Shown here in pieces: positions 11,305 through 61,297 of a DNA stretch of 64,000 bases. This DNA comes from Rhizobacter sp. Root1221. GTDB lineage: Bacteria; Pseudomonadota; Gammaproteobacteria; Burkholderiales; Burkholderiaceae_C. The stretch lies in contig NZ_LMDI01000002.1 in NCBI RefSeq assembly GCF_001425785.1, positions 124,001-188,000 on the forward strand. Reading direction: 5' to 3'. The translations under genes were made by a program, and so were the position numbers. Positions within the stretch are counted from its first letter, which is position 1. Every line of letters begins with the position of its first letter. The notes under the pieces were generated by a model. The model was not told where the DNA came from. It saw nothing but the letters and a program-made list of their open reading frames with translations, and did not search any database.

Positions 11305-11961
11305 ATGAACACTTTCGAATCCAATCGCGCCCCGCTGTCCTCGCTGGATGCCTGGCTCGTGGCGGCCGACAACGCGTTGCGCACGCTCGCCGGTGCCGGT
11401 CCGGCGGCGGTGCCGTCACCCGCGGCGCCGCTGGCCATCCCCGACCTGCCGGACGCCGACCGGCGCCTGTCCGGCGCCCTGATGCGGGTGAACCACGTCG
11501 GCGAGGTGTGCGCGCAGGCGCTTTACAACGCCCAGGCCCTCACGGCGCGCGACGCGGTCGCGCGGGCCCGCTTCGAGGCCGCCGGGCGCGAAGAAACCGA
11601 CCACCTCGCCTGGACGCGCGACCGCCTGGTCCAGCTGGGAGACCGCCCGAGCCTGCTGAACCCGCTGTGGTACCTCGGTTCGTTCGGCATCGGCTGGGTG
11701 GCCGGGCGAACCAGCTCCCGGTTGAGCCTCGGGTTTGTCGTAGAGACCGAGCGGCAGGTCGAGGCCCACCTCGCAGGCCACCTCGAACGGCTGCCCGAAG
11801 GCGACCACGCGTCACGCGCCATCGTCTTGCGGATGAAGGAAGACGAGGCCCGTCACGCCGACCAGGCAGAGCAGGCCGGCGGTGTGCCGCTGCCGAAGGT
11901 GGCGCAATGGCTGATGCGTGCGGCGTCCAAGGTGATGACCACCACGGCCCACCGCATCTGA
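11305..11961 (+). CDS. coq7: Demethoxyubiquinone hydroxylase Coq7
   Basis: Coq7 is a membrane-associated di-iron monooxygenase that hydroxylates demethoxyubiquinol, the penultimate step of ubiquinone synthesis. The 218 residues from ATG 11305 carry all six iron ligands as two EExxH-type repeats: Glu67, Glu97 with His100 (EETDH), Glu149, and Glu181 with His184 (EARH). The frame is open to 10606, but that extension is antisense to the porin gene and is not part of the protein. It is convergent with the OsmC-family gene, with four bases between the stops. Confidence 0.92.
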
Positions 11962-11965
11962 GCCT

Positions 11966-12388
11966 TCAGGCCGCCACCAGGTCGAAGCTGGTGGTGATCT
12001 CGGCGGTCTTGCCAAGCATGATGCTGGCGGAGCAGTACTTCTCGTGGGACATCTGGATCGCTCGCTGCACGGCCGTTTCGGGCAGGTTCTTGCCGGTCAC
12101 CGTGAAGTGCATGTGGATCTTCGTGAAGACCTTCGGATCCACCGGCGCCCGCTCGGACGTGACCTTCACCTGGCAGCCGCTCACGTCGTGCCGCCCGCGC
12201 TTGAGGATCAACACCACGTCATAGGCGGTGCAACCGCCGGTGCCCGCCAGCACCGTTTCCATGGGGCGTGGGGCCAGGTTGCGGCCGCCGCCGTCAGGCG
12301 CGCCGTCCATCATCAGCACGTGACCGCTGCCGGTTTCGGCGACAAAGCCCATGCCGCTCGCGGCCAGCCAGTTGATGGTGCATTCCAT
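11966..12388 (-). CDS. OsmC family protein (YhfA-like)
   Basis: OsmC/Ohr-fold proteins are thiol peroxidases or related stress proteins acting in the cytoplasm. The 140 residues contain the two conserved cysteines of the superfamily, Cys53 in AGTGGCTAYD and Cys119 in SHEKYCSAS, and the ETVLAGTGGC helix. The C-terminal half SASIMLGKTAEITTSFDLV matches the YhfA branch better than classical OsmC or Ohr, so organic hydroperoxide activity is uncertain. It is divergent from ilvA and the candidate small RNA. Confidence 0.82.
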   Translation of the reverse strand: MECTINWLAASGMGFVAETGSGHVLMMDGAPDGGGRNLAPRPMETVLAGTGGCTAYDVVLILKRGRHDVSGCQVKVTSERAPVDPKVFTKIHMHFTVTGKNLPETAVQRAIQMSHEKYCSASIMLGKTAEITTSFDLVAA

Positions 12389-12528
12389 GAAATGTCCTGT
12401 CTGAAAAAATCAGTAAAAACGGAACGTGGGCAACGTGCGCGACATCAGCCGGACGTCCACGGGAAAGGCCTCGAAATACCCTCGAACGGGTTATTGCGAC
12501 GCAACATGTCAAGTATTACACTGACGAT

Positions 12529-12628
12529 CATTGGTGTTATGGCGTGTTCGCCCAACCCAACCGATTGTCTCCTCCACCTCCTCCATTGGTGGATTCAGCC
12601 CAAGGCAGCAATGCCTTGGGCTTTTTTT
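12529..12628 (+). ncRNA. Candidate double-hairpin small RNA with anti-Shine-Dalgarno loop
   Basis: This free-standing transcription unit lies between divergent osmC-like and ilvA. A fair promoter (TTGCGA at 12494-12499, 17-base spacer, TACACT at 12517-12522) would start RNA near 12529. Hairpin 1 (12560-12590) has a 6-bp stem, ACCGAT/ATTGGT, presenting a 19-base loop of CU-rich sequence with two CTCCTCC-like units complementary to Shine-Dalgarno sites. Hairpin 2 (12598-12621) is a perfect 10-bp stem with loop GCAA, followed by seven T: a textbook terminator. No plus-strand gene upstream needs this terminator. The layout resembles the double-hairpin small RNAs known from Burkholderia. An ilvA leader/attenuator is the alternative reading. 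Confidence 0.62.
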
Positions 12629-12671
12629 CGACTCACTTCATCCGGCGCATCGTTCGCCCAGGAGATCGTTC

Positions 12672-14222
12672 ATGGCCGGCACCGCCCGCCCCCGTCCCCC
12701 GAAGCCCCTCGGCCTGCCCGACTACCTGCAGAAGATCCTCAACGCGCAGGTCTACGACGTGGCCCGCGAAACCACCCTGGACCGCGCGAACAAGCTGTCG
12801 GCACGGCTCGGCAACCATGTCTGGCTCAAGCGCGAGGACACCCAGCCCGTCTTCAGCTTCAAGTTGCGCGGGGCCTACAACAAGATGCGCCAGCTCACGC
12901 CCGCGCAACTCAAGCGCGGGGTGATCTGCGCCTCCGCCGGCAACCACGCACAAGGTGTGGCCCTCGGCGCGCGCCACCTCGGCTGCACGTCCGTGATCGT
13001 GATGCCGGTCACCACGCCGCAGCTGAAGGTGGATGCCGTCAAGGCGCTCGGCGGCGAGACGGTGCTGTACGGCGAGAGCTATTCCGATGCCTACCAGCAC
13101 GCACTCGAACTCGAGCGTTCGCGCGGGCTGACGTTCGTGCACCCGTTCGACGACCCTGACGTCATCGCCGGACAGGGCACGGTCGCGGTGGAGCTGCTGC
13201 GCCAGCATCCCGGCCCCATCGATGCCGTGTTCGTCGCCATCGGCGGTGGTGGCCTGATCTCGGGCGTCGCGGCCTACATCAAGTCGATCCGTCCCGAGAC
13301 CAAGGTCATCGGTGTGCAAACCACCGATTCCGACGCGATGGCCCGTTCGGTGGCCGCAGGCAAACGCGTGCAACTGAACGACGTGGGCCTGTTCTCGGAC
13401 GGCACGGCCGTGAAGCTCGTTGGTGAGGAAACCTTCCGCCTCACCCGCATGCTCGTCGACGAGTTCGTCAAGGTCGACACCGACGCGGCCTGCGCGGCCA
13501 TCAAGGACGTGTTCGAGGACACCCGCTGCATCGTCGAGCCCGCCGGCGCGCTGGGCGTGGCTGCGATCAAGCAGTACGTGGAGCAGCACAAGCTCAAGGG
13601 CAAGACGTTCGTCGCGATCACGTGTGGCGCGAACATGAACTTCGACCGCCTTCGGTTCGTGGCAGAACGTGCCGAGGTGGGCGAGGAACGCGAAGCCCTG
13701 TTTGCCATCACGATCCCCGAGGAACGCGGCAGCTTCCGCCGCCTGTGCGAACTGATCGGCGACCGCAGCGTCACCGAATTCAACTACCGCATCTCCGACG
13801 AGCGCCAGGCCCACGTGTTCGTGGGACTGACCACCCGCAACCGCAGCGAGTCGGCCAAGCTCGCCCGCAGCTTCACGCGCCACGGTTTTGCCGCCATCGA
13901 CCTCACCGACGACGAGATGGCCCACCAGCACGTGCGGCACATGGTCGGCGGGCGCAGCGAGCTGGCGCGCGACGAACGCGTGTACCGCTTCGTGTTCCCG
14001 GAACGCCCGGGGGCGCTGATGCGGTTCCTGTCGCACATGCACCCGGACTGGAACATCAGCCTCTTCCACTACCGCAACCAGGGCGCCGACTACGGCCGCA
14101 CGCTGGTGGGCATCCAGGTGCCCCGCGGCGACAAGAAGGCGTTCACCGAGTTCCTGAAGACCCTCGCCTACCCCTGGGTCGATGAAACCGACAACCCGGC
14201 GTACCGGTTGTTTCTCAGGTAG
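12672..14222 (+). CDS. ilvA: Threonine ammonia-lyase, biosynthetic
   Basis: IlvA deaminates threonine to 2-oxobutyrate, the committed step of isoleucine synthesis. The 516 residues match the long biosynthetic form (E. coli 514): a PLP-dependent catalytic domain with FSFKLRGAYN (PLP lysine Lys64), SAGNHAQGVA and the phosphate-binding GGGGLISG. Two ACT-like regulatory domains follow from about residue 335 (FAITIPEERGSFRRLCELIG and YRFVFPERPGALMRFL), where isoleucine and valine act. ATG 12672 is preceded by AGGAGA at a good distance. A strong terminator hairpin lies 50 bases upstream. Confidence 0.95.
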   Translation: MAGTARPRPPKPLGLPDYLQKILNAQVYDVARETTLDRANKLSARLGNHVWLKREDTQPVFSFKLRGAYNKMRQLTPAQLKRGVICASAGNHAQGVALGARHLGCTSVIVMPVTTPQLKVDAVKALGGETVLYGESYSDAYQHALELERSRGLTFVHPFDDPDVIAGQGTVAVELLRQHPGPIDAVFVAIGGGGLISGVAAYIKSIRPETKVIGVQTTDSDAMARSVAAGKRVQLNDVGLFSDGTAVKLVGEETFRLTRMLVDEFVKVDTDAACAAIKDVFEDTRCIVEPAGALGVAAIKQYVEQHKLKGKTFVAITCGANMNFDRLRFVAERAEVGEEREALFAITIPEERGSFRRLCELIGDRSVTEFNYRISDERQAHVFVGLTTRNRSESAKLARSFTRHGFAAIDLTDDEMAHQHVRHMVGGRSELARDERVYRFVFPERPGALMRFLSHMHPDWNISLFHYRNQGADYGRTLVGIQVPRGDKKAFTEFLKTLAYPWVDETDNPAYRLFLR

Positions 14223-59977: not shown

Positions 59978-61297
59978 ATGCCCACCGTTCCTGGCAAACC
60001 GACCAAGCCGCTCAAAGCCAAGCTCACCGCGCTGAACGACAAGCTGCGCCGCACCGGCAGCACCCTGAAGAAGCTCAAGCCCACGATCGAGAGTGTCGAC
60101 ACGATCAAGCAGCGCCGCGTGGCAAGACGCCAGGCGTCCGGCCTTCACTTCGCGCTCGCCGACCGCATCGACTTCCTGAACGCCGAACACTGGGACCGGC
60201 TCGCCGCCGCCAGCGTGTTCCTGTCCCGCGACTACCTGCGCGTGCTCGAGGTCCACGGCCCCGACAACGTGCAACCGCGCTACGCAATGGCGTACTCGAC
60301 CGGCGGCCAACCGGTGGCCATCATGCTGTTCCAGCGGGTGCGCATCACCGGCGACCGCCTGCGCAAGCCGGGTCCGCGCAAGCTGATCGACAAGCCCCTC
60401 GCCCGCATCGACGAGCACCTGCTCGTGTGCGGCAACCTGCTCGTGTGGGGCGCGCGGGCCTACGCATTCGCGCCCGATGCCGACCCGCAGCTGCTGTGGC
60501 ACGGCGTGGGCGAGGCGATGTACCGGCTGCGCCGGGCCGACAAGCTGCTGGGCGAGTCGGACCTGGCCATGGTCAAGGACTTCGCGGGCGGCGACCACGT
60601 CGCCAAGGATGCCCTGCGCCTGCTGGGCTACCGCCACGTCGACACCGACCCCGACATGGTGCTGACGCTGAAACCCGCGTGGAAGACCTGGGACGACTAC
60701 CTCGCAAGCCTCACCTCGAGCTACCGCAGCGCCGCCAAGCGCCTCGAGAAGGACTGCACCGCCGCCGGCATCGTGTTGCGCGTGGCCACCGCCGCCGAGA
60801 TGCACGAGCGTCACGCCGAGATCCAGGACCTCTACTACCAGGTGCACCACGCCCAGGGCCTGCGGCTGGCGTCGCTCGCACCGCGCTACCTCGCGAGCAT
60901 GGCCGACGCCCTCGGGCCCGAGCGGTTCGTGTGCCGCGTGGCCGAACGTGACGGCCGCCTGCTCGGCTTCGTCACCACCGTGCGCGACGGTGACACCGCG
61001 GTGGGCTACTACGTCGGCTACGACCGTGAAGCCAATGCCGGCGCCCCCATCTACCTGGCATTGCTGCAGTCCACCATCACCGACGCCATCGGTTTCGGCG
61101 TGCGCCGTCTCTCGCTCGGCCGCACCGCGCTCGAACCGAAGGCCAAGATGGGCTGCAAGCCCGAGCCCATGGCCTGCGCGGTGCGCCATCGCGTGTCGGC
61201 GTTCAACTGGATCACCACCGCGCTCACCCGCACCGCGTCGCACGACGAGCCGCCGGAACGCAGCCCGTTCAAGGCAGCGGCCGACGCACCGGCCTGA
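59978..61297 (+). CDS. FemAB/GNAT-like acyltransferase-fold protein
   Basis: A 439-residue cytoplasmic protein without signal or membrane segments. The C-terminal half resembles the FemAB-related GNAT domain (BioF2-like): YLASLTSSYRSAAKRLEKDCTAAGI, LGFVTTVRDGDTAVGYYVGYDREANAGAPIYLALLQSTITDAIGFGVRRLSLGRTALEPKAKMGCKPEPM. The last block is the typical end of such proteins. The N-terminus is a basic helix (AKLTALNDKLRRTGSTLKKLKPTIESV). It probably transfers an acyl or aminoacyl group, but acceptor and donor are unknown. Confidence 0.72.
   Translation: MPTVPGKPTKPLKAKLTALNDKLRRTGSTLKKLKPTIESVDTIKQRRVARRQASGLHFALADRIDFLNAEHWDRLAAASVFLSRDYLRVLEVHGPDNVQPRYAMAYSTGGQPVAIMLFQRVRITGDRLRKPGPRKLIDKPLARIDEHLLVCGNLLVWGARAYAFAPDADPQLLWHGVGEAMYRLRRADKLLGESDLAMVKDFAGGDHVAKDALRLLGYRHVDTDPDMVLTLKPAWKTWDDYLASLTSSYRSAAKRLEKDCTAAGIVLRVATAAEMHERHAEIQDLYYQVHHAQGLRLASLAPRYLASMADALGPERFVCRVAERDGRLLGFVTTVRDGDTAVGYYVGYDREANAGAPIYLALLQSTITDAIGFGVRRLSLGRTALEPKAKMGCKPEPMACAVRHRVSAFNWITTALTRTASHDEPPERSPFKAAADAPA

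Follow-up and report, generated by a model that had tools for sequence, protein, structure and literature searches.

Here we present a small RNA (sRNA) unit on the plus strand of the window (the whole 64-kb stretch of DNA that was analysed), which we read as an RF02278 sRNA, a counterpart of S17/CT_433 of Bordetella and a putative anti-Shine-Dalgarno regulator, transcribed from a promoter with a predicted PhaR operator that would be relieved by PHB. We put the probability of this reading at about 0.8. Its basis in this analysis is the sequence, the predicted structure, the family, the gene neighbourhood, the operator match and the co-occurrence with PhaR. Transcription, RNase E processing, the involvement of Hfq, target repression and the titration of PhaR by PHB are carried over from papers on relatives and would apply here by analogy. 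We infer that all of this holds in the present organism, that PhaR binds 12491-12507 and that its effect there is repression and not activation. The RNA itself is of a known kind, and what is new is the PhaR-type operator on its promoter.

The mature-type sRNA (12566-12629, plus strand) matches the Rfam model RF02278, 'Betaproteobacteria toxic small RNA', over its full length (model positions 1-64 of 64), scoring 67.2 bits where the gathering score is 50. Judged by its letters, it is an RF02278 sRNA, that is, a known kind of presumptive ribosome-site-blocking RNA, and the match bears out the initial annotation, in which a double-hairpin anti-Shine-Dalgarno sRNA of the Burkholderia kind had been proposed. 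The NmsR model, RF02877, gives the RNA a weak match of 36 bits, below its gathering score of 52. RF02278 is present as a single copy in the window's genome. A covariance search of the Burkholderiales, a check that the initial annotation had named, placed the RNA over the cut-off in 11 of 11 genomes of the genus, its own included (in two of them a second, weak match stays under the cut-off), and in 116 of 300 genomes of the order; at E <= 0.001 the order count was 192 of 300, and none of the 14 control genomes had a match. Scanned with cmscan, 14 of 18 stretches from named genomes contained RF02278; these 18 were chosen by name among at least 115 matching stretches, many of which come from organisms outside the order and are therefore probably chance matches.

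Several arrangements of the family in other genomes were also seen. Members of family f7 (G016, G065 and G174) hold 8-9 RF02278 matches per genome, and some of these copies form close pairs about 200-400 bp apart; close pairs also occur in G204, G232 and G309 (L321-L326, L337, L338). In Paraburkholderia rhizosphaerae and in a Polynucleobacter, RF02278 has an RNase P RNA no more than about 1 kb away (L213, 2444-3803; L203, 2943-3923). The L014 copy, together with its flank, is matched over 30-63% by 27 plasmid-collection records (H1-H27) from Caballeronia, Paraburkholderia and Burkholderia.

The 100-nt RNA folds with a z-score of -5.25, which was equalled by none of 200 shuffles. The 63-nt short form reaches -31.0 kcal/mol (z -5.8) and consists of a tail, UGUCUCC, a 6-bp stem with the loop UCCUCCAUU, and the terminator. 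Upstream of it, the 5' part of the inferred precursor (12529-12565) is poorly conserved in the alignment. The tail (12566-12572) is single-stranded in the fold and is where the predicted pairing site 1 begins; GTCTCCTC, in the 5' tail region, is invariant across 37 aligned sequences. Hairpin 1 (12573-12593) pairs 12573-12578 with 12588-12593 and exposes the predicted pairing site 2 in its 9-nt loop (12579-12587). Five of the six pairs of this stem were examined in 36 distinct sequences, and all 168 cells were paired; both-side changes occur at two of the five pairs (12 cells), and the other three never vary. With relatedness uncontrolled, none of 500 shuffles reached the covariation score, and 158 of the 500 had as many both-side pairs. 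Compared with many other family members, the core in the window lacks one C, and its loop bases differ from those of several. A hairpin with a 19-nt loop at 12560-12590, as initially drawn, was rejected in favour of this stem, since it folds with -2.3 kcal/mol (z +0.15), no better than shuffles.

Hairpin 2 and its T run (12597-12628, plus strand) form an intrinsic terminator by terminator scan and fold (-21.2 kcal/mol, z -4.8). Its perfect stem and seven T had been described correctly; the stem is of 11 bp rather than 10 bp, spans 12597-12622 with a 4-nt loop and includes the first of the seven T. The terminator scan returned one site where shuffles are expected to give 0.7, close to their mean, and the generic promoter scan found none at TTGCGA/TACACT, which falls below its threshold, so that the case for the unit rests on conservation.

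The unit lies, as had been noted, between divergent neighbours: osmC, for an OsmC-like protein (11966-12388, minus strand; PF02566), and ilvA, for threonine dehydratase (12672-14222, plus strand; PF00291 and PF00585). Beyond osmC is coq7 (11305-11961, plus strand; PF03232), which is also a neighbour of Bordetella S17 (PMC11722255); it ends at 11961, and there is indeed no plus-strand gene just upstream that would need the terminator. In each of the 11 genus loci the RNA is flanked by all three genes. Among 30 loci of other genera, coq7 and/or osmC lies within 1.5 kb of the RNA in 22, osmC adjoins it in 20, and ilvA lies within 1.5 kb in one (L040, of the same family as the window), with contig ends possibly hiding some neighbours. 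On this difference ilvA appears to be a late, incidental neighbour, and the sRNA unit appears to travel with coq7/osmC; the placement "upstream of ilvA" in the initial annotation is accurate for the genus and fails for 29 of the 30 loci outside it. In the genus alignment a TATNATCCGGCGCC-like block between 12629 and 12672 is kept in most members, the window copy being degenerate, and this block is possibly the ilvA promoter.

The promoter proposed initially is present in its letters, with a -35 hexamer TTGCGA (12494-12499) and a -10 hexamer TACACT (12517-12522) on the plus strand, 17 nt apart; TATTGCRRCGCA, with the TTGC of the -35, and TACACT are kept in the 11 aligned genus loci. Overlapping the -35, and absent from the initial annotation, is the predicted PhaR operator TTATTGCGACGCAACAT (12491-12507, plus strand), a palindrome whose core is that of YTKNTGCRNYGCANMAR, the form in which R. 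eutropha PhaR sites have been summarised (PMC12849132). With a 17-bp matrix built from 57 sites at phasin promoters in 29 other genomes, 12491-12507 is the top 17-mer of the 64-kb window at 19.1 bits. The runner-up, at 61061 with 17.8 bits, falls within a long open reading frame and was for that reason discarded as a chance operator. As a positive control, the 250 bp upstream of 31 phasin loci of the window's family (30 other genomes and its own; L190, L160-L189) contain the core in 30 cases and contain it twice in 29, own phasin included; random stretches have it in 4.0 cases on average and in 10 at most. At 29 of the 31 loci the two palindromes are spaced by 57-60 bp; the sRNA promoter has one strict site where the phasin promoters have two. 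PhaR is encoded in 209 of the same 300 order genomes, among them the window's own (G000; PF07879, E 9.3e-28).

Genome-wide, TTGCRNYGCAACA was not enriched (6 matches, against 10 in the reversed control), so the case for PhaR rests on position and comparison. Of 40 loci, 33 have the palindrome half-set TTGC-R-N-Y-G-Y-A within the 180 bp that precede the RNA, mostly at the expected -35 position; random stretches of the same loci gave it in 0.45 of 40 on average and in 3 at most. L012, L013 and L030 of the 43 loci lack the anchor string and were left out. In f7 paralogues such as L322, L323 and L325, a palindrome that resembles the operator and nearly matches its core lies across the -10 instead of the -35.

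Across genomes, the operator and PhaR occur together. With one sRNA locus per genome, 61 of 80 PhaR-positive and 0 of 27 PhaR-negative genomes have the strict core TGCRNYGCA in the 200 bp upstream of the RNA; for 150 bp the counts are 60 and 0, respectively. These 107 genomes are drawn from the 116 over the cut-off; 8 were absent from the matches listed, and one of the 108 listed (G089, L129) had no orientation. Dinucleotide shuffles expect the core in 3.1 of the 80 and 0.45 of the 27, and the downstream control has it in 9 of 106. All 15 PhaR-positive loci with an upstream GC content at or below the PhaR-negative median contain the core, and the median matrix scores are 10.8 for PhaR-positive and -10.3 for PhaR-negative loci. 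Because the genomes are related, an uncorrected p overstates the co-occurrence. By unmixed families, the core is found at least once in 13 of 14 that have only PhaR-positive genomes and in 0 of 6 without PhaR (p 1.8e-4). The mixed families give 9/9 against 0/1 (f4), 6/7 against 0/1 (f9, where one of the six matches, L152, is far upstream) and 1/3 against 0/5 (f43), with p about 0.01. In one same-genus pair, G172 has both PhaR and the operator (L036) and G283 has neither (L022).

The core also often stands where a -35 element would. TTGC followed by TANNNT at 16-18 nt was found in 39 of the 61 core loci (32 of them at 17 nt), with 3.2 expected, and this geometry is absent in the other 22. The strict core is absent in 19 of the 80 PhaR-positive loci, among them 1 of 10 in the window's family (L040), 2 of 2 in f48 and 4 of 5 in f21. 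RF02278 paralogues have it in 17 of 34 cases in PhaR-positive and 0 of 6 in PhaR-negative genomes (L340 and L346 of the 42 were left out); at least 2 of the 17 matches lie far upstream. Some strict matches far upstream and without promoter geometry may be due to chance: L152 at 191, L339 at 177 and L341 at 197.

The palindrome might nevertheless be read by another regulator, or be a mere conserved form of the promoter of an RF02278 sRNA, with PhaR uninvolved. We judge this unlikely, since the same core is paired at 29 of 31 phasin promoters and is absent upstream of the RNA in all 27 PhaR-less genomes examined, also within the three mixed families; a form kept for the promoter alone should have survived the lack of PhaR. 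In favour of this reading are the Bvg dependence of S17 described for Bordetella (PMC11722255), the 19 of 80 PhaR-positive loci that lack the strict core and the lack of genome-wide enrichment of the generic pattern.

Two further readings were considered. In one, the terminator and the CU-rich loop would be a cis-acting leader or attenuator that controls read-through into ilvA or the ilvA ribosome-binding site. The distance from the end of the terminator to the ilvA start is indeed 43 nt, they adjoin each other in all 11 genus loci and in L040, and the ilvA frame stays open across the region; the reading was nonetheless rejected on synteny as highly improbable, since 29 of the 30 loci from other genera have no ilvA within 1.5 kb. 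Published relatives, moreover, act in trans, and most genus members have a distinct TATNAT block after the terminator and before ilvA. A chance hairpin and terminator without function is the least probable of all: the RF02278 score, the order-wide conservation and the fold z-scores below -5 oppose it, and the points in its favour are the empty generic promoter scan and the single terminator-like site close to the shuffle mean of 0.7.

For the PhaR-controlled sRNA, we propose that an RNA of about 100 nt would start near 12529 (an inferred start), end at the terminator at 12628 and probably be trimmed to a double-hairpin form of about 63 nt. Its free 5' tail and loop, with their CUCCUCC units, would base-pair with many mRNAs at ribosome-binding sites of the GGAGG type, and this pairing, aided by Hfq, would lower the translation of the target mRNAs. 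In the absence of PHB, PhaR would occupy the -35 operator and the sRNA would be low; as PHB granules form, PhaR would be titrated onto them, the sRNA and phasin would rise together, and the raised sRNA would turn down uptake and catabolism. PhaR is described as repressing phaP1 without PHB and as being sequestered on granules during PHB synthesis (PMC12849132, PMC11332829), yet as an activator of phaP3 in R. eutropha (PMC12849132), and the sign of its action at the sRNA promoter is therefore not certain.

The down-regulation through Shine-Dalgarno sites foreseen in the initial annotation is consistent, by analogy, with published relatives, which are described as pairing with ribosome-binding sites (PMC12235514, PMC11722255); the anti-Shine-Dalgarno interpretation is in this sense supported, and the earlier observation as a whole is partly borne out. 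Target prediction, also suggested there, was run with one pattern in the own genome and gave 4 perfect site-1 matches before an ATG against 0 in the control, thin support from this genome. The products of two of the four are PhaR itself (L307) and a solute-binding protein (L308). A feedback through the site-1 complement inside phaR was considered and rejected: the complement is kept in 0 of 20 other phaR loci (those among the 30 tried in which the peptide was found) and is thus a codon-level coincidence.

Beyond this locus, it is likely that the RF02278/S17 family belongs to the PhaR regulon throughout the order, so that PHB storage would drive a global anti-Shine-Dalgarno sRNA that damps uptake and catabolic genes. 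If so, PhaR would be a candidate for the repressor postulated at the S17 promoter, the operator would supply an input signal, PHB storage, for S17/CT_433-type RNAs, a major RIL-seq hub, and betaproteobacterial PHB producers would gain a riboregulatory arm. A paper reportedly titled NcS27 co-regulates carbon source utilisation, and cited in the S17 study, has a title that fits the PHB idea. We found no link between PhaR and an RF02278 RNA in the open-licence papers searched. PhaR does not occur in the available main texts of PMC5688073, PMC11722255, PMC5760752 and PMC12235514, nor PHB in that of PMC5688073, and a 2021 review called riboregulation in the PHB process of Cupriavidus necator undeciphered (PMC8401924). 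The phasin-like gene BCAL2206 is listed as lowered in a B. cenocepacia deletion of ncS35 (PMC5760752), which has no Rfam hit and is therefore another sRNA than RF02278.

By its core and coq7 neighbourhood, a characterised relative of the window RNA is S17/CT_433. In the available text of the S17 study (PMC11722255), S17 of B. pertussis lies between BP3151 and coq7, has a sigmaA promoter (-35 TTGCAT, -10 TACTAT, 17-bp spacer) at which a repressor is merely postulated, responds to Bvg mode, is cut by RNase E to a 67-nt product and is enhanced by Hfq, its level falling in an hfq deletion. The same study reports direct repression of BP2158 via complementary bases and sites near the ribosome-binding site in 70 of 91 up-regulated genes (92 in the abstract); S17S had hardly any toxicity in E. 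coli BL21 and none in exponential growth. CT_433 is the same RNA, for which RIL-seq gave 36 S-chimeric partners and a common target motif resembling the Shine-Dalgarno sequence (PMC12235514). The window RNA shares with S17/CT_433 the CU-rich core, the coq7 neighbourhood and a TTGC-type -35 with a 17-nt spacer; unlike S17, its inferred precursor is shorter (about 100 against 190 nt).

Four double-hairpin RNAs, ncS03, ncS05, ncS27 and ncS62, are described in B. cenocepacia, with a common upstream motif noted for three of the four (Fig. S3) (PMC5688073), and RF02278 RNAs of this species are reported as toxic or growth-inhibiting when introduced into E. coli (PMC4603805). The window RNA resembles this set in sequence, in its two hairpins and in unpaired CU-rich segments complementary to ribosome-binding sites, and differs from it in being a single copy by coq7/osmC/ilvA. 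Four RF02278 RNAs are among the sRNAs detected in Herbaspirillum seropedicae SmR1 (PMC7011215). The NmsR/RcoF RNAs of Neisseria (RF02877) have a similar CU-rich design and, unlike the window RNA, form a tandem pair; the likeness of double-hairpin RNAs to the NmsRs had already been noted (PMC5688073). For the predicted wiring from PhaR to an sRNA, the parallel is MmgR of Sinorhizobium meliloti. This sRNA depends on Hfq, and PhaR (AniA) binds and represses its promoter (PMC12542648, PMC8401924); its description sets it apart as a member of the alphaproteobacterial family alpha-r8 that acts on phasin levels.
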